Part shown: positions 2,789 to 34,400 of the stretch, in pieces
Layout: each line of letters opens with the position of its first letter
Position numbering within the stretch: position 1 is the first letter of the stretch
Assembly (NCBI GenBank): GCA_011089965.1
Contig: JAANAU010000024.1
Coordinates: 1-53,798 of the forward strand
Source: Magnetococcales bacterium
Lineage (GTDB): Bacteria; Pseudomonadota; Magnetococcia; Magnetococcales; Magnetaquicoccaceae
Length of the DNA: 53,798 nt
Direction of reading: 5' to 3'
Notes under the pieces: model-generated
Databases searched by the model: none
What the model was told of the DNA's origin: nothing
Seen by the model: the letters and a program-made list of their open reading frames with translations, nothing else
Position numbers and translations under genes: made by a program

Positions 2789-4005
2789 CGCCTTCCACTC
2801 CCAACACCATGACGGATGATCCAGAGTTGCGCCTGGTCACGCGCCCAGCGATCCACAGCCAACAACTCCTCGACCGAACCAAATGTCCCTGGTCCATTCT
2901 GCTCCAACGTCCATTGAATCAGACGCGGGATATCGGCAAAACCGATCTCATGTCCCAAAAAGGCCGCGACAGCCACCTCATTGGCACCATTCAAGATCGC
3001 CGGAGCCGCCCCACCCTGCTGCAATGCCGCATAGGCCAACGACAGGCAGGGAAAGGCTTCCGGGTCAGGCGGACCCAAAAAATGCAATTTTCCCATAGAC
3101 GGCAGATCCAATGGTGCCACCGGAGCAGCGATCCGTTCCGGCCAGGCCAAAGCCACCGTGATCGGCGTGCGCATATCCGGCACCCCCATCTGCGCCAACA
3201 CCGAACCATCCGGATAGGCCACCATGGAATGGACGATACTCTCCGGATGGATCACCACCTGAATGCGTTCTGCCGGAATCCCGAACAGATGATGGGCTTC
3301 GATCACCTCCAGCCCTTTGTTCATACAGGTGGCCGAATCAATGGTGATCTTGCGGCCCATGCTCCAGTTGGGATGGGCCAGGGCCTGTTCCGGAGTGACC
3401 TGGACAAGCCGGTCACGCTCCCAGCCGCGAAACGGTCCGCCCGACGCGGTCAGAATCAACCGCACATCCGCATGACCCGGACCAAACACAGGGCCTGCCC
3501 CAACTCCGGTCAACCGGCCATTGTATAAGAGTTGAAAAATGGCACTATGTTCCGAGTCCACCGGAATGATTCTGGCACCACACCGATGCGCCTCGTTCAT
3601 GAACAGCGCACCCGAGATCACCAGACACTCCTTGTTGGCCAGCGCCACCTCCTTGCCACTTTGCAAGGCTGCCCAGGTGGGCCGCAATCCCGCTGCCCCG
3701 ACCATGGCCGACAACACCAGATCCGCACTCTCCCAATGGCCAATCCGCTCCACACCGGCATCTCCGGCCAGGATGGCCGTGGGTTGACCGGAAAGGGCTG
3801 CCCGCAGCTGTTCCACACCAGAGAGATCCCGCAAGGCCACAACCTCGGGCCGAAACCGGCGCGCCTGCTCGATCAGCCGACCCACATTGGAACCTGCTGC
3901 CAAAGCCACCACCCGAAAACGGTCCGGATGGGCTGCGATCACATCCAGGGCACTGACGCCAATGGATCCGGTCGATCCCAGAATGGCGATCCGTTTAACC
4001 CCCAA
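2785..4005 (-). CDS. dxr: 1-deoxy-D-xylulose 5-phosphate reductoisomerase
   Basis: Converts DXP to MEP using NADPH, the committed step of the non-mevalonate isoprenoid pathway. The NADPH-binding GSTGSIG is at the N-terminus; ILTASGGPFR, the metal/substrate segment around DSATCMNKGLE and VIHPESIVHSMV follow in the expected order. The start is placed at TTG 4005, giving 406 residues beginning MGVKRIAILG, which matches the family. It overlaps the cdsA 3' end by 11 bp, and GGGAG lies about 10 nt upstream. The reading frame stays open further upstream to 4110, but that part lies inside cdsA and does not resemble DXR. In the usual DSATLMNKGLE motif Leu is replaced by Cys here. Confidence 0.94.
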   Translation of the reverse strand: MGVKRIAILGSTGSIGVSALDVIAAHPDRFRVVALAAGSNVGRLIEQARRFRPEVVALRDLSGVEQLRAALSGQPTAILAGDAGVERIGHWESADLVLSAMVGAAGLRPTWAALQSGKEVALANKECLVISGALFMNEAHRCGARIIPVDSEHSAIFQLLYNGRLTGVGAGPVFGPGHADVRLILTASGGPFRGWERDRLVQVTPEQALAHPNWSMGRKITIDSATCMNKGLEVIEAHHLFGIPAERIQVVIHPESIVHSMVAYPDGSVLAQMGVPDMRTPITVALAWPERIAAPVAPLDLPSMGKLHFLGPPDPEAFPCLSLAYAALQQGGAAPAILNGANEVAVAAFLGHEIGFADIPRLIQWTLEQNGPGTFGSVEELLAVDRWARDQAQLWIIRHGVGSGRR

Positions 4006-18545: not shown

Positions 18546-18971
18546 GTGCGTATCGGAATCTTGGCCAAACTGGCGGCCTGCGATGTGGAGACGGTCCGTT
18601 ATTACGAACGGGAGGGACTGCTGGAAAAACCGGAGCGGGCGGCATCCGGCTATCGTCACTATGCGCCCCGTCATCTGGAGGCCTTGCAATTCATCCGTCA
18701 CTGCCGTTCTTTGGATATGAAACTGGCAGAAATTCGTCAACTGCTCGATTTCCGCCGTCTGCCTGAACGGGATTGTTCCGGGATCAATGCCCTTCTGGAT
18801 GCCCAGATCGCCCGCGTACTCCAACAAATCCAGATGCTGGAATCCCTGAAAGAACAATTATACCTGCTGCGCGCCGAGTGCGAACAGCGTCAAAGCGCGC
18901 AAGGGTGCGGAATTCTGCGTTCGCTCAACGATGCCGCCATGGGCAGACCGTGCCCATGCCATGAACCATGA
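18546..18971 (+). CDS. MerR-family metal-responsive regulator (CadR/PbrR/ZntR type)
   Basis: 141-residue activator that binds the 19-bp-spacer promoter next to it. Residues 1-70 form the winged helix (GILAKLAACDVETVRYYERE), then a dimerisation helix. Cys77, Cys112 and Cys121 lie where CadR/ZntR-type regulators bind Cd2+, Pb2+ or Zn2+; the tail adds Cys136 and Cys138. Start GTG 18546 has GGAG 6 nt upstream and gives the same length as E. coli ZntR. The frame is open far upstream, but that part is antisense to the ATPase. The stop overlaps miaA by 4 bp, which is an unusual partner. Confidence 0.9.
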   Translation: MRIGILAKLAACDVETVRYYEREGLLEKPERAASGYRHYAPRHLEALQFIRHCRSLDMKLAEIRQLLDFRRLPERDCSGINALLDAQIARVLQQIQMLESLKEQLYLLRAECEQRQSAQGCGILRSLNDAAMGRPCPCHEP

Positions 18972-19897
18972 AGGTTCTGGTCATCCTTGGTCCGACCGCC
19001 TCTGGCAAGACCCGTCTGGCCGTGCAACTGGCCAGACAACTCGATGGCGAGATCCTCTCTGCCGACTCCCGGCAGGTCTATCGCGGATTGGATATCGGCA
19101 CCGGCAAGGATCGGCACGAATATGGCGAAATCCCGTGCCACTTGATCGATCTGGTGGATCCGGGGGAACCGTTTGATCTGTTTCAGTACCAACAACGCTG
19201 TCATATCGCGCTGTCTGAGATTCTGGCACGTCACCGTCTGCCCATTCTGACCGGTGGCAGTGGAATGTATCTTGCGGCCATTGTTCAGGATTACCGGCTG
19301 GTGCCAGCCCAACCCGATCCCCTGTCACACCGTGAGTTGGAACCACTCTCGGACCAGGAGTTGACCGAGCGGCTGTTGACCCTCCAACCGATCCAGCACA
19401 ACACGACCAATCTGGATACGCGGGCACGCATCATCCGCGCTTTGGAGATCGCCCAGGCAACCCATGCAGCGGCTGGACAATCCATCACACGTCCGACCTG
19501 TGATTTTCTCATCCTGGGCATGCGCTGGGAACGCCCGGTTTTGCGCGCGCGCATTGCGCACCGTCTCCAGGAACGTCTGGAGAATGGATTGATTGACGAA
19601 GTGTCCGGATTGCTCGCGCGCGGTATTGCACCGGCCACGCTGGAGGCATTCGGATTGGAGTACCGCTTTGTCACCCGTTTCGTTCTGGGGCAGATCGATC
19701 AGGCCACTCTGTTTGACCAACTGGTGCAAGCGATCCGACAATTTGCCAAACGCCAGGAGACCTGGTTTCGCCGCATGGAGCGTCAGGGGGTGACCATCCA
19801 TTGGCTGGATGCAGCGCACGATCCGGAACAGACGGCCCTGACACTCATCCGGACGGCATGGTCGTTTCCGGTTCGCCACCCTTCTTCCCAACCGTGA
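18968..19897 (+). CDS. miaA: tRNA dimethylallyltransferase
   Basis: Adds the isopentenyl group to A37 of tRNAs that read UNN codons. Motifs: P-loop GPTASGKTRLA near residue 8, SADSRQVYRGLDIGTGK near 32, LIDLVDP near 58, TGGSGMYL near 95 and the C-terminal RRMERQGVTIHWLDA. Length 309 is normal. The final 20 or so residues (ALTLIRTAWSFPVRHPSSQP) are encoded by the left copy of a 71-bp direct repeat (19835-19905). It starts inside the MerR stop codon region (ATGA), so it is probably cotranscribed with that regulator. Confidence 0.93.
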   Translation: MKVLVILGPTASGKTRLAVQLARQLDGEILSADSRQVYRGLDIGTGKDRHEYGEIPCHLIDLVDPGEPFDLFQYQQRCHIALSEILARHRLPILTGGSGMYLAAIVQDYRLVPAQPDPLSHRELEPLSDQELTERLLTLQPIQHNTTNLDTRARIIRALEIAQATHAAAGQSITRPTCDFLILGMRWERPVLRARIAHRLQERLENGLIDEVSGLLARGIAPATLEAFGLEYRFVTRFVLGQIDQATLFDQLVQAIRQFAKRQETWFRRMERQGVTIHWLDAAHDPEQTALTLIRTAWSFPVRHPSSQP

Positions 19898-19905
19898 CCG
19901 CTCTG
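19835..19905. repeat. 71-bp direct repeat, left copy
   Basis: Matches 21019-21089 in the same orientation at 70 of 71 positions; the one difference is C at 19874 versus T at 21058. This copy encodes the end of miaA, including its stop. The repeat period is 1184 bp, and the Rpn-family gene fills the space between copies. Confidence 0.95.
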
Positions 19906-19951
19906 GTGAGGCCACTGGTATCGGAGTGTTCTGACCACCCTTGACCAATGC

Positions 19952-20968
19952 TCAGGCCCGAGTGGCGAACACCTCATCAAGGGAGTGGGCGTCCATCAAT
20001 TGCAGGCTCCACTCTTCCAGCAATCTGGAATCGGCCTTGGAGATTTGTTCCTTTACCCAATCAGGCAGAGGGCCGAAACGGCGTTGGAGAAGGCGGGTCA
20101 AAAGAGCGGCTTCGCCAATCTGGATGCCCTCCTGACGGCCCTCTTCCTTACCGAGTTGGATACCTGCCAGAATCCCTTCTTCTTTGCCCTTTTTATGACC
20201 AATACGTTCCACGCTCGTGATGTAAGTCATATTCTTGTTCTCCTCAAAGTCGGATAAAATCACCCAAAATTGGTTGTCCAACTCTTCAGGCAGGCTCAGC
20301 AACCAATCAATGAATCGAAAAAGATCAACGATGCGCTGACGGCTGAAACCATGCTCGTACAACATGCGCGTCATGCGCATTTTTTGCTGAAATCGTTCTG
20401 TTGGTTGGTTCCTGGTCTGTTTGCCGGTCAAATGTGCCAGAGTGACAATGGCAAACGGATTGGCAGATGACTCCAAAACATCCAGCCTTGTCAGATAATC
20501 CAATAATTTGATGGCATTGAACTGAAAACTGACCCGAGATCCCCACATCTGGTAGCCAAATTCCGATGGGTGCCAGCCACTCTCTTCATCGGCGAGGATG
20601 GCCAAGCTGACCACAGGACGCCGATACAAATCATACGCCCGATATTGGCAGATGTACATCCGCTCGCCAAAACTGGTGGCACGGTCTCCCTGGATCTCAA
20701 CATGAATCAGCACCCAGAGTTCATCACCACCGAGCAGCCAAACCTTGACCAGCAAGTCCACGCGACGGTTGCCAGATACCGCCTCCCGGGTAATCCGGTC
20801 CAACTCCTTGTCGAGAAATTCCGGACCACGCTCCCAGTCGATAGCCGCATGCGCTTCCGGAAGAAAGAAGGCCAGGAAATCCTCAAAATATGTCTTCAGG
20901 ATCTCTTTCCAGGGTGAGTCGTACTCGGTCGCATGGCTGTTGAACTCGTGATTGGTCATGTGAGACAT
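19952..20968 (-). CDS. Rpn/PD-(D/E)XK nuclease family putative transposase
   Basis: Rpn-family (recombination-promoting nuclease, Transposase_31-like) protein of about 338 residues. The nuclease core is in the N-terminal third: an Asp in RRVDLLVKV and the VEIQGD motif near residue 90, followed by MYICQYRAYDLY. The middle is helical and ends with FRFIDWLLSLPEELD. The C-terminal part contains a Gly/Glu/Lys repeat rich in KEEG and IQLGKEEGRQEG and a helical tail, as in many Rpn proteins. Starts at 20968 and 20959 are both weakly supported. It is flanked by 71-bp direct repeats, which suggests insertion between miaA and the MucR-like gene. Whether it moves itself is unknown. Confidence 0.8.
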   Translation of the reverse strand: MSHMTNHEFNSHATEYDSPWKEILKTYFEDFLAFFLPEAHAAIDWERGPEFLDKELDRITREAVSGNRRVDLLVKVWLLGGDELWVLIHVEIQGDRATSFGERMYICQYRAYDLYRRPVVSLAILADEESGWHPSEFGYQMWGSRVSFQFNAIKLLDYLTRLDVLESSANPFAIVTLAHLTGKQTRNQPTERFQQKMRMTRMLYEHGFSRQRIVDLFRFIDWLLSLPEELDNQFWVILSDFEENKNMTYITSVERIGHKKGKEEGILAGIQLGKEEGRQEGIQIGEAALLTRLLQRRFGPLPDWVKEQISKADSRLLEEWSLQLMDAHSLDEVFATRA

Positions 20969-21018
20969 GCCCTTTTCACCGGTATGTTGCTTCCCCAACT
21001 CACCACCATCATATGGCT

Positions 21019-21089
21019 GCCCTGACACTCATCCGGACGGCATGGTCGTTTCCGGTTTGCCACCCTTCTTCCCAACCGTGACCGCTCTG
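21019..21089. repeat. 71-bp direct repeat, right copy
   Basis: Matches 19835-19905 with one mismatch. This copy holds the 3' end of the minus-strand MucR-like gene (stop at 21029-21031) and also still contains the C-terminal codons and stop of the miaA frame on the plus strand. Confidence 0.95.
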
Positions 21090-21544
21090 ATGGCTGGTGG
21101 TGAAAGGGGAGTGGCCGCATCCAGTCCGAACTGCTCCCGATACTGCTCAACAGTCATCTTGTGAGTCCGACCCAAATGGACCTTGATCCCCTTGAAGGTC
21201 TGCCCACACACAAGACAGGTGATCCCGGTTTCAGGGGCTGGAGTAGGGAGTGGGATTGGTTCTGGAACAGGTTCGGGAGTTGATTCCACCTCCAGTGGCA
21301 CCCCGGATGTGACCGGTTGGGCAGGAACATCCACCTCAGCCGCTGAAACGGGGGTTTCCTGCGTGGAACACCTCACCTCGAAAACCTCGGTTACGGATTG
21401 GGTTGGCACGGCCACAGGAACCGGAGTCGTCATGGCCCCTCCTGTGCTCTGCACCGCCGCTTCGGCTTTCCGGCGATCCAACACCATGCGCAGACCGATG
21501 TACCCGATCACCGCCACCAGACCCAGCCATCCCAAACCCTGCAT
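21029..21544 (-). CDS. Membrane-anchored Ros/MucR-like zinc-finger protein
   Basis: 171 residues in three parts. A hydrophobic helix at about residues 3-22 is followed by RRK, as in a membrane anchor with a cytoplasmic C-terminus. A Pro/Val/Thr/Glu-rich linker spans about 30-105. The end is a Ros/MucR finger: C110-x2-C113-x9-H123-x4-H128, then KMTVEQYREQFGL, the typical MucR follow-on. MucR proteins are normally soluble DNA-binding regulators of about 140 residues, so the anchor is unusual. Start ATG 21544 has GGAGG 5 nt upstream; ATG 21556 is also in frame. Its C-terminal VGKKGGKPETTMPSG is encoded by the 71-bp repeat. Confidence 0.7.
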   Translation of the reverse strand: MQGLGWLGLVAVIGYIGLRMVLDRRKAEAAVQSTGGAMTTPVPVAVPTQSVTEVFEVRCSTQETPVSAAEVDVPAQPVTSGVPLEVESTPEPVPEPIPLPTPAPETGITCLVCGQTFKGIKVHLGRTHKMTVEQYREQFGLDAATPLSPPAIRAVTVGKKGGKPETTMPSG

Positions 21545-21639
21545 GCGCGCCTCCATCAGGTGATTGGAGCATTTTATGACTCTGTATCACAAAGCATGCA
21601 TCAGGGTCAATACGCATTTTTTTTGGCGCTGCCGGGTAT

Positions 21640-29032: not shown

Positions 29033-31406
29033 CTCGTCTTCTTCCCCCATCAATCCCTGTGAGCACGTCACGTGGCATGGCCAGAACCAACAAACGTGCC
29101 GCTTCGGTAAAATTCAGTTGATCGAAACACTCTCCAATCTGTTCCAATGTTGCGGTCGGAATCCGGGACACCAAACCAGCGTGCAATTGATGAAATAAAG
29201 CGCGAGCCTGAAAATCACCATCTTCCACCAGACGCAACAACTCCTGAATCTGGGTATCGGAACAAGGCTCTCTCGTTGCAACCACAATCGGCTCATCCTG
29301 AACATGCGCATAACGCCCCACCCAATCCAGAATCGCAGAAACAACTTTAGTAAGTTCAATATTCAACTCATCAAGAGTATGGCGCAACGCCTCCAACTGC
29401 CCGGATACAGCCTCCTCTTCCAGACGGGCTGCCAGGGCAGCCACGCCATTGGCAGAAATATTGGCCGCCACCCCTTTCAAGGCGTGAGCAGCATTGCGGC
29501 AACCCGTGAGATCAGCGGCACTCAGCCGTTCCTTGAGCAGTGCCACTTTTTGTCCATGTGAAACAATGAAACGCTCCAACAATCGGATCACCAACTCTCG
29601 ATCCCCATCCAAACGTTCCATGAGCTGTGGCAAATCGATTCCGGACAACGGTGGCAGTTGAGGGGCATCGGTCGGTTGAATCGCCTGCACAACCGCTGGT
29701 TCCTGACGCACAGGAATACGCACCCGACCAACCAGATGCATGGACAGGACACTGAACATGCGTGCCACATGCACCGGTTTGGTCAGATAGTCGTTCATGC
29801 CCAACTCCAGACAACGTTCTTTTTCGCTGACCAGGGCATTGGCCGTCATGGCAATGATCGGCAGACGCTCCTTGGAAAAGTGCTGTCTTAACTTCCGCGT
29901 GGCCTCGTAGCCATCCATGACCGGCATTTGCAAATCCATCAACACACAATCAAACCCGTTTGGTTGTTCCTGGAGACGCTCCACTGCCTCCTGTCCATGC
30001 ACTGCCCTTTCCACCTCCAGACCGCTGCGTTTCAGAATGGCCTTGACCACCTGCCAGTTCAGGTCATGATCCTCCACCACCAAAATGCGCGCTCCTTGCG
30101 GCACATCCATCCGTGGCACGGACGAACGCCCGGTTTGTTGCCGTTTTCTTTCATCCTCCGAGAGATTCGACCAGGGAAAAAAGATCGTGAAAAAAAACTC
30201 ACTTCCTGAACCCGGCCAGCTTTGCACCTCCAGTGCCCCCTCCATCAACTCCACCAGATTGCGACAGATCGCCAACCCCAATCCGGTCCCGCCATAGGTG
30301 CGCGTGGTGGTGGAGTCCACCTGCACAAACGGTTTGAACAGCCCGGCTGTCTGTTCATCCGTCATGCCGATGCCGGTGTCCCGCACCCGAAAACGCAAAC
30401 CGATCCGTTCGGTACTCCGTTCAACCTCCTCAATGCGAAAGGAGATGGTTCCACGTTGGGTGAATTTGATGGCATTGCTGCCCAGATTGATTAAAACCTG
30501 TTCCAGACGCAATGCATCGCCAACCAACAGGCGTGGCAGATCGGTGGGCAACTGTTGAAGGATTTTCAATCCTTTTTCCTTGGCCTTGCCCGCAATCAAT
30601 CCCATCACCCGTTCCAGCACCTCCTCCAGCCGGAACGGCAAATGCTCCAGTTCCATCTTCCCGGATTCGATTTTGGAAAAATCAAGAATATCGTTGATAA
30701 CGCCCAACAGGGTATCGGCAGCCATCCGGATCTGTCCCATGCGCAGCCGCTGTTCCGGGGTGAGAGGACTTTGACTGAGCAGATACCCCATGCCGATGAT
30801 GGTATTCATCGGAGTGCGCAACTCATGGCTCATGTTGGCCAGAAACAGGCTCTTGGCCAAAGTCGCGCTCTCCGCCACATCCTTGGCCTCGCGCAAGGCA
30901 CTCTCCATCTGCATGCGTTCGGAGATGTCCAAGCCCATACCAACCAACAAGGGTTGACCATAGAGATCCACACGCTTGCCAATAAAATAATGAGGCGTGA
31001 CCGTTCCCACCCGGGAGACAATGCTGGCCAAAGCGGTGGCGCTCCCCTCCACAAACACCTGCTGTACCCGCTCCCGGATCAACTCTTGTTCTGAACCTTG
31101 GAAAAACTCTTCGGGTGAAGCTTGCGCCATCTCTTCCGGAAGATAGCCGGTCAACTGCTCCAATTGTTTGTTCCACATCCGGAAACGGCCATCCGGGGTG
31201 ATGACGTAGAAGACTCCGGGCAAGGCATTGACCAGTTCCCGGATAAAATCACGCTCCTGCCGCATGTTTTCCGAGATTTGACGATACCGCTCCTCACTGG
31301 CGCGCAAGGCCTGGGTCACCCGGTCATGACGCCGGTAGGCCCGCCACGCCACCAACAATACCGATACGCCAACCAGAACCACCACAGGCAACCACAGATG
31401 GGTCAT
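29016..31406 (-). CDS. Hybrid sensor histidine kinase (TM-PAS-HisKA-HATPase-REC-HPt)
   Basis: 796 residues. One membrane helix at about 5-20, a PAS domain at about 60-170, HisKA with [13 protein letters not shown] near 195, ATPase boxes [17 protein letters not shown] and [13 protein letters not shown], a receiver with [11 protein letters not shown] near 500, and an HPt domain with [10 protein letters not shown] near 680. The last 70 residues ([19 protein letters not shown] region) recur at the end of the neighbouring kinase. Start ATG 31406 lies 4 nt after the stop of that kinase; GTG 31409 is also possible. It has almost no periplasmic part, so it probably senses inside the cell. Close motif identity with its neighbour indicates tandem duplication. 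Confidence 0.86.
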
Positions 31407-31410
31407 CACA

Positions 31411-34400
31411 TCATTGAACTCCTTCCAGGAGCGCCACCAGCGCCTCGGCAGCAGCATCGAACTCCAGCATCTCCACGTGCTGATCGATTCGCGCCAACCA
31501 CTCCGCATCCCCATGCTGCGCCAACAGGTCACGCAACGAGGCATACAGATTGCGTGCCTGAAAATCTCCGTCCACCAATAACCGATGCAAACGGTGCAGC
31601 TCAGCCAATGGCAAGGACACAGATCCCGCAGGTGGATCCGCAGCCGCCACCTTCACCACTCTCTCACCCTCCTCCCAGCCATGGATGGCATCGACAAGCT
31701 GGTTGATTTCCGCGCACAAGCTCCCCAGCAGATCCCGGCACCCTGCGGAATCGCCGTTTACGACCAACCCCTCCATCTGCCCGGCCAATCCGGCAATCGA
31801 ATGGGCAGCCAGATTCCCGGCAACCCCTTTGATGCCGTGCAACACCTGACGCGCTCCCTCCAGATCGCCGCCCTCCAGACACTCCCCCACGCGCACTCCG
31901 GAATCGCGATGCAAGAGGGCAAACTGCCGCACCATCCGCCGGAACATCTCCCCATCCCCATCCAACCGTTCTGCGACCTCCGCAAGATCAATGCCTGCCA
32001 ACTCCGGGAAATGGCCACGCTCTCTCCCGGGGTCAATCGACTCAAAACGGGCAGGAGCAACACCCTGGATCCTTGATGGCAGATGGGCTGCCAGTAACGC
32101 ATACAACTGTCGGACATGAACCGGTTTGGTCAAATAGTCATTCATGCCCAAGGCCAGACAGTGATCCTTTTCGCTCTTCAGGGCATTGGCCGTCATGGCA
32201 ATAATGGGCAAACGTTGCGCATCGAAGTGAACGCGCAATCGTTTGGTCGCCTCATACCCATCCATGATCGGCATATGCAGATCCATCAACACGGCATCAA
32301 ACCGGTTCGGCTCTGCCAACAGACGCGCAACTGCTTCAGCGCCATTAACGGCGTTCTCCGCATGAATCCCGGCCCGAGACAGGATCCCTTCGGCCACCTG
32401 CCAGTTGATCTCGTGATCTTCCACCACCAGAATGCGTGCGCCACGGATCTGTTCCGGAATCCCCTCGATCTGGCCGGAACTCCTGGCATCCTCGCGAACC
32501 GGCACCCCCTTGCCCAACACCTCCTGCAAGGTATTCAACAGCAAGGACGGGGTGACAGGCTTGAGCATGAATCCATCAACCCCCACGGCACGCGCATCCT
32601 GCATCACATCCTGCCGACCAAATGCAGTCACCATGATCACCTGGGTCGATTCCATGGCCGCATTGGCGCGAATGCGGCGTGCGGTTTCGATCCCATTCAT
32701 GCCGGGCATCTGCCAATCCAACAGGATCACGTCATAGGGAGGCTCACCGGCAGCCACCACCCGTTCCAACTCGGCCAGCGCCTCCTGTCCGGAAGAGACG
32801 ATGAGTACATGACATTCCAACCCTTGCGCCATTTCACTCAGAATTTGCCGCGCACTTTCATTATCATCAACTATCAGAAGCCGTAACGGACAAGGTTCAT
32901 CGTCTTCTTTGGCAGGTTGAAAACGTACCATATTGGTCTCTTCCGGTTGACGATCCAATGACACCACAAAAGCAAATTCACTGCCCTCGCCCGGAGTGCT
33001 GCTGACCGTAAAAGAGCCATGCATCTGATCCACCAGATTTTTGCAAATCGCCAGACCCAACCCGGTGCCCCCATAATAACGGGTGGTGGATGAGTCAGCC
33101 TGGGAAAAAGGCTTGAACAGGCCCGCAATCTGCTCTTCGGTCAAACCAATGCCGCTGTCACGCACCGAAAAACGCAGCAAAGCCGTCCCGGCCGTGACCT
33201 CCAGAGGCTCCACCCGAAACACGATTTCACCACTCCGGGTAAATTTGACGGCATTGGTTCCCAGGTTGATCAGGATCTGTTCCAACCGCAAGGCATCCCC
33301 GATCAACGAACGCGGCAGATCCGGTGGCAAGGCAAACAGAATCTCCAGCCCCTTCTCTTCGGCCCGCATGGCCACCATGCCCGCCACCTTCTCCAGCACC
33401 ATCCCCAGTTCAAAGGGTTCGTGTTCCAGCTCCATGCGTCCGGCCTCGATTTTGGAGAAATCGAGAATATCGTTGATGATCCCCAGCAAGGTCTCGGCAG
33501 CGGATTGGATCTTGCGCATGCGGGAGTGCTGACTGGGCGTAAGGGCCGATTGGGACAGCAGATAACCCATACCGATGATGGTGTTCATCGGAGTACGGAT
33601 CTCGTGACTCATGTTGGCCAGAAACAGGCTTTTGGCCCGATTGGCAGCTTCGGCACTCTCTTTGGCGGCCAGCAACAACTCGGCAGCATGCTTGCGTTCC
33701 GTGATGTCGCGAATCACGGCAGAAAAAAAACGTACCCCATCCGCATGGGTCCAGGTATTCAGCGACAACTCCAATGGAAACTCGGTCCCATCCTTACGCA
33801 ACCCTGCCATCTCCACAGTTTGACCAATCAACGGCGCAATCCCTCGCTCCAGAAAACGCCCGAAACCAAACCGATGCGCTTCCACATAACGTTCCGGGAT
33901 CAATCGATCCAGTTTCTGGCCCATGATCTCGGTACGGGTATATCCAAACAGCTCCTCTGCCCCTTTGTTCCAGAAAATAACGGTCTGTTCATAATCGGTG
34001 GCAATGATCGCGTCCCGTATGGAGAGGGTAACGGAGCGGAACCGCTCTTCGCTGGCCTGGAGCCGTGCCAGGGTCTGTTCGTGCCGGATCACCTCCTGAC
34101 GCATCTGCTGGTTGCTTGACTCGGCAGCGGCAATGGCATCGTTCAAGGAGGCCAGCATCTGCCTGCGCTCGGAGATGTCCCGCAAAAAGGCGGTAAAAAA
34201 AGTATAATTCTCACCTGGAATCACGGTGATGGCGATCTCGGTGGGAATGCGATCCCCGCGCGCGTTGATCGCATCCAACTCGATATGCTGGTTGATCACC
34301 CGTTTCTCACCCGTGGCCACATAACGCGCCAGACCACGCCGATGGGCCTCACGCATCTCAGGCGGAATGATGGTCTCGCTGATATCGCGCCCCAACACAT

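Follow-up and report, generated by a model that had tools for sequence, protein, structure and literature searches.

Recent insertion of an Rpn-type gene with a 71-bp target duplication at an overlapping gene junction in a Magnetococcales bacterium

In the lineage leading to this Magnetococcales species, a single Rpn gene was recently acquired at the site where the 3' ends of two convergent genes, miaA and a MucR-like gene, overlapped by 53 bp, and a 71-bp duplication of that junction left both genes intact. The arrangement resides in a stretch of 53,798 nucleotides that was analyzed as a whole and is referred to as the window in the following. The initial annotation of the window had pointed to 71-bp direct repeats, matching at 70 positions and in the same orientation, and a repeat search returned exactly this pair at a spacing of 1184 bp (Table 1). 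As extended by the search, the pair comprises positions 19835-19908 and 21019-21092 with 72 of 74 positions matching. There are exactly two copies of the 71-bp repeat in the whole 3.66-Mb assembly (80 contigs), and the single ORF enclosed by them is a DUF4351/Rpn gene. The ends of the neighboring genes are distributed over the repeats as had been described: the final 63 bp of miaA including the stop codon at 19897 lie inside the left copy, the stop codon of the Ros/MucR-domain gene (21029, minus strand) lies inside the right copy, and each copy also encodes the end of the other gene. No terminal inverted repeats were detected by the repeat search at the ends of the inserted segment.

Table 1. 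Features at the miaA/MucR-like junction, given in window coordinates
Feature	Position	Strand	Remarks
miaA (tRNA dimethylallyltransferase)	18968..19897	+	intact ORF; Pfam IPPT PF01715, E 1.2e-57
Left repeat copy	19835..19905		miaA 3' end and 3' end of the minus-strand MucR-like gene
Inserted segment, ~1.11 kb	19906..21018		one Rpn gene and ~50 bp on each side; missing in congeners
Rpn-type gene with DUF4351 at the C-terminus and a nuclease-type motif (D71...E91-x-Q93)	19952..20968	-	ORF without start limit reaches 21028
Likely internal gene for a C-terminal product of 92 aa, RpnS-type	19952..20230	-	ATG at 20230, GAGGAG ~9 bases upstream
ATGGCTG	21013..21019	+	5' (Rpn-side) insert end; equals the 7 target bases just beyond the right repeat
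Right repeat copy	21019..21089		MucR-like gene 3' end; also most of the miaA 3' end
Gene with C-terminal Ros/MucR zinc-finger region and hydrophobic N-terminus	21029..21556	-	intact ORF; PF05443
ATGGCTG	21090..21096	+	target bases immediately outside the right repeat; microhomology partner

The name MucR-like holds for the C-terminal half of the encoded protein, in which Pfam places the Ros/MucR domain (PF05443, E 8.5e-13, residues 101-155), but not for the remainder. Upstream of this region the protein features a hydrophobic start resembling a membrane anchor and a middle part of low complexity that is variable among congeners. MiaA is 55-68% identical to its counterparts in congeners. A further direct repeat in the window (81 bp, 89%, 30778-30858 and 33557-33637) looks like a box of neighboring histidine kinase paralogues.

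To locate empty sites, the miaA 3' region was used as a query against relatives, and the junctions were then read. In five congeners (G010, G008, G005, G002 and G001) miaA and the MucR-like gene are convergent, Rpn-free and overlap at their 3' ends by 125, 53, 119, 8 and 8 bp, respectively. If the flanks of the window site are joined at the repeat, both genes are intact, overlap by 53 bp as in G008 and align colinearly to the congener sites. A convergent ancestral overlap without Rpn gene, as the initial annotation had predicted, is thus present in five congeners, and it is because of these Rpn-free overlapping junctions that we explain the site by an insertion during which 71 bp of the target were duplicated. 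The proposal that the junction was duplicated upon arrival of the Rpn gene with both neighbors being kept agrees with the finding that the doubled 71 bp span the whole 53-bp overlap, and neither empty relatives with two repeat copies nor non-overlapping genes were encountered among the congeners examined. On grounds of parsimony, the Rpn gene is an insertion in the species' own lineage, as loss in all other congeners would be a needless assumption.

Assignment of the inserted gene to the Rpn family is less straightforward. Pfam recognizes DUF4351 alone, without a match of the nuclease domain to PF04754 (Transposase_31), NCBIfam provides no Rpn model for the protein, and PADLOC returned no match. 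The family label is upheld by a profile comparison of 11 homologues of the window protein with PF04754-type proteins (probability 99.3), in which RRVD...HVEIQG is aligned opposite R-SD...LEFQS and to the score of which the common C-terminal DUF4351 contributes. The nuclease region of the window protein thus appears homologous to that of PF04754 proteins, including a shared D...ExQ motif. RpnL/RpnS toxin-antitoxin genes are furthermore characterized by an internal start for a C-terminal product and by four-residue repeats (Zhong 2023, PMC10327210). The internal ATG behind GAGGAG is kept in all 11 of the homologues, where it is followed by G-x-x-E-G repeats, and judging from these features an RpnS-like product would be translated from within the window gene. 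A structure model of the protein was of low confidence (pLDDT 64) and had no PDB match. Rpn has been characterized as an endonuclease that cleaves DNA in a metal-dependent manner, and in E. coli it increases RecA-independent recombination (Kingston 2017, PMC5350276). The genome itself contains 38 matches to the window Rpn protein, many of them to its C-terminus only. The nearest of these Rpn genes is ~80% identical to that in the window while the two repeat copies are 98.6% identical to each other, and we therefore conclude that the gene came from outside and is not a local copy; a donor or parent locus was not found.

The idea that other Rpn genes carry long flanking repeats as well proved fruitful. 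A second Rpn gene in the same genome is flanked by perfect 62-bp repeats (G000:C56:121829-121890 and 122924-122985) that occur in two copies only in this genome. The encoded protein matches PF04754 (E 1.3e-23), and the insert extends ~15 and ~20 bp beyond the Rpn gene. The repeat spans a 4-bp stop/start overlap between nfo, assigned to endonuclease IV on the basis of its sequence, and the ORF upstream of it, and this overlap is Rpn-free in all seven congeners examined. When public genomes were scanned for Rpn, the closest matches were found in Magnetococcales bins. In isolate nWRX3bin6 (G035, locus L193), a member of another Magnetococcales genus, an Rpn gene resides between fdx and iscX and is flanked by a 97-bp repeat (94%, 6 differences) carrying the end of fdx and the start of iscX. 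A plain 4-bp ATGA overlap free of Rpn connects fdx and iscX in sister species (G029, G039) as well as in further genera. The repeat sequences from the nfo and fdx sites occur at a single location in empty relatives wherever they were matched. Three Rpn insertions from different subfamilies hence reside in overlapping gene junctions and each duplication spares both genes.

Further repeat-flanked Rpn genes were detected in other surroundings. At locus L401 (G036) the repeat comprises 327 bp (92%, 27 differences) and corresponds to the 3' end of a neighboring membrane-protein gene. Locus L113 (G010) features an identical 75-bp repeat (100%) that reaches from the CCA end of tRNA-Lys through its terminator, and the insert also contains a second large ORF resembling a transposase. 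A 42-bp repeat (93%) is present at L420. Three cases look older, i.e. L127 with a repeat of ~64 bp (87%) that includes the upstream stop and a promoter-like pair, L399 (72 bp, 82%) and L388 (62 bp, 79%). With the exception of tRNA-like stretches at L113/L181, the flanking repeats have no extra copies in their own genomes (2.7 Mb of loci). At L127 (G002, 2544-2594 and 3929-3979), the promoter-like pair TTGATC-17-TATGAT has been retained in both copies, and the duplication may therefore provide Rpn with a promoter while the downstream gene keeps its own. In one Rpn subfamily (L113/L054, L055, L067, L174 and L181) the 3' tail of the gene resembles a tRNA-Lys end with terminator, and at L113 this tail stretch forms the flanking repeat beside the real tRNA-Lys.

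Are such repeats a peculiarity of Rpn genes? The two flanks of each ORF were compared for a set of about 400 Rpn ORFs, counting fragments, and for 295 controls located at the same loci; an all-versus-all direct-repeat scan of an 800-kb sample covering 553 further ORFs served as a control from the own genome. Neither the 295 control ORFs nor the 800-kb scan yielded a unique repeat of at least 40 bp and at least 90% identity around a non-Rpn gene, and no other unique direct-repeat pair of 35 bp or more at a distance of 400-4000 bp surrounds a non-Rpn gene in the 800-kb sample, the remaining repeats of which are tandem protein repeats or interspersed families. Clean cases, a status settled after removal of multi-copy repeats, amount to 5 of 415 for Rpn when the window is excluded as compared to 0 of 295 for the controls (p 0.08), or to 0 of 848 once the 553 own-genome ORFs are added (p 0.004). 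All of them stem from draft genomes, mostly metagenome bins. The excess over controls is modest and lends support to, but does not prove, a preference of the process for Rpn genes. Most of the ~400 Rpn ORFs tested, fragments included, lack a flanking repeat, and the same is true for E. coli rpnA and rpnC. Old duplications would decay, and repeat-free Rpn genes are equally explicable by other entry routes.

A number of candidates were rejected or left uncounted. Terminator-like repeats at L142 and L143 were discarded as evidence since the palindromic repeat is interspersed: the element GAGGGGGTCTGGGGGATTC...CCCCCAGACCCCCTC is frequent across these Magnetococcales genomes (L142, L143, L138, L106, L326, L328 and L330). 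At L234, from the complete genome of a cyanobacterium, the repeat occurs in eight copies and reads as a PEP-CTERM tail. L140 and the cyanobacterial loci L210, L214, L217, L243, L244 and L250 are possible cases that were not counted, as copy number or contig ends were not cleared. Exact 121-bp repeats at C12 and C54 are contig-end effects or tandem Rpn copies. L036, L053, L087, L122, L137, L160, L343, L345, L356, L387, L397 and L404 represent tandem or partial Rpn duplications and not target duplications, while L314, where the repeat consists of the 3' end of a neighboring gene together with Rpn, is ambiguous. Many Rpn genes are directly followed by a truncated copy (48-192 bp) of their own 5' end (L404, L122 in G000:C20, L397, L345, L343/L356 and L387), i.e. 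by partial tandem duplications limited to the N-terminal part. Tandem Rpn genes at L118 (G000:C61:20060-21977) and L137 (G008:C45) are identical over 917 and 1052 bp, respectively, and L137 contains additional 207-bp repeats. A MITE-like interspersed repeat of 127 bp with complementary ends (TAAACC...GGTTTA-like) was observed at L310 (12436-12562 and 15458-15584) and in L314 near 6240.

By which route did the Rpn genes enter? The duplicated stretches measure 71, 62, 97, 75, 327 and 42 bp and always consist of target sequence. As repeat lengths vary and neither terminal inverted repeats nor fixed ends are present, this is not ordinary transposition, and the fact that the inserts hold little beyond the gene argues against a classical transposase. 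The initial annotation had likewise set the event apart from normal transposition and had named repair of a break or a novel way of insertion as possible routes. Variable repeat length and absence of element ends fit better with a repair-type capture than with a classical transposase. The explanation we lean towards is that an Rpn fragment is captured at a staggered break with filled-in ends, whereby the target is duplicated, at overlapping junctions. One nick in each strand, at a distance of tens to hundreds of bases from each other, would open the target, the long single-stranded ends would be filled in such that the stretch between the nicks is duplicated, and a foreign fragment with the Rpn gene would be captured between the filled-in ends. 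Insertions with a duplication of sufficient length to leave both overlapping genes unharmed would then pass selection, and the repeat would still be visible at packed junctions because only insertions sparing both overlapping genes survived. The obvious candidate for making the nicks would be the Rpn nuclease itself, given the activity reported for it and its influence on RecA-independent recombination (PMC5350276).

Three of the nine inserts examined begin with a copy of the target bases that border the repeat on its outer side (CAGCCAT in the window, CACCAGGAA and ATCCACCC), and L193 and L127 exhibit 10-bp matches to the repeat itself at this position. This microhomology, which was noticed post hoc, suggests that joining may have been guided by microhomology or that templates were switched. 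In the latter scenario, which is possible though clearly not our first choice, a stalled polymerase leaves at the end of the repeat, copies a foreign Rpn gene and returns 71 bp upstream, such that the repeat is copied twice. Variable lengths, lack of element ends and microhomologies of 7-10 bp are all accounted for, and the partial tandem Rpn duplications elsewhere are covered as well. The drawbacks are that two switches with a backward jump are required each time and that no reason is apparent why Rpn in particular should be copied with little beyond its reading frame. Somewhat more speculative is the notion that Rpn is a mobile gene without ends, the enzyme of which nicks the target irregularly, whereupon the gene encoding it is captured or copied at this site together with a long target duplication, enters overlaps harmlessly and leaves again by recombination between the repeats.

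It is unlikely that a circle with the Rpn gene, already bearing the repeat, recombined with the chromosomal repeat, as has been modeled for gene transposition in Arabidopsis. Such an integration yields exactly the repeat-Rpn-repeat order, and genes related to the Rpn gene of L113 have 3' tails that are ~80% similar to the tRNA-Lys terminator forming the L113 repeat. At miaA, nfo and fdx, however, a donor containing the same junction would be needed, which shifts the problem to an earlier insertion, and no second locus with the repeat was found in the genome for either of its two cases. Even less credible is a two-step process in which a tandem duplication of the junction preceded an insertion of Rpn, free of any duplication, between the copies: the order microhomology-repeat-microhomology-rpn-repeat is readable as a tandem of microhomology plus repeat with Rpn in the second copy, but none of the relatives examined contains a duplicated junction without Rpn and the coincidence would be required at several independent sites. 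An assembly or chance artefact can practically be dismissed, despite the draft status of the genome and 121-bp exact overlaps at Rpn repeats on some contig ends, because the copies differ internally (by 1 base in the window, 6 at L193 and 27 at L401), which together with the position of the window site inside a 53.8-kb contig makes an assembler k-mer effect unlikely, because lengths are inconstant and sites lie within long contigs, and because empty relatives show the expected ancestral state.

Capture at a staggered break, our preferred reading, can be compared with a process known from eukaryotes. Paired nicks are established there to result in tandem duplications by fill-in of staggered breaks (PMC5730883). 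Both settings have in common that the stretch between opposite-strand nicks is duplicated, that its length varies and that inserts occur at times, while the published case concerns eukaryotic end joining at engineered nicks and ours a bacterial 1-kb gene insert deduced from sequence. In Arabidopsis, single-gene transposition left flanking repeats of 30-287 bp (Woodhouse et al. 2010, PMC2869330); most of these are genic, and they can be traced to the empty site in orthologous position. Here as there, one gene moved and the direct repeats are gene sequence found at the orthologous empty site. The plant study deals with nuclear genes from many families, some with known parent loci, whereas the insertions described here concern a bacterial nuclease family and occur at gene overlaps that are kept intact, with no parent locus found. 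We found no description of a repeat-flanked single-gene insertion from bacteria in the open-licence papers searched. Insertion sequences and DDE transposons likewise form discrete insertions between direct repeats of the target, but theirs are short and fixed, unlike the variable 42-327 bp without terminal inverted repeats reported here.

For Rpn/YhgA-like genes (PF04754, DUF4351), published work found neither target-site duplications nor evidence of autonomous transposition (PMC5350276, PMC10327210), and the main paper on these genes explicitly describes them as lacking target-site duplications, which the present cases contradict. The genes studied here share with the published ones (PMC5350276, PMC10327210) a PD-(D/E)XK-type motif, the internal C-terminal start, four-residue repeats, and occurrence as mobile single genes with varying ends; they differ in that several of the insertions carry long target duplications. 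The varying ends noted by Zhong et al. (PMC10327210) are thus confirmed, while the lack of target duplications does not apply to all Rpn genes. These findings bear on the way in which Rpn genes, widespread genes for toxin/defence nucleases, are disseminated. Recent insertions proven by empty sites supply exact junctions, so that a role of the nuclease becomes testable. They also show how two overlapping genes can receive a third one between them with neither being lost, and they hint at a process in bacteria that parallels the repeat-flanked gene transposition of plants.
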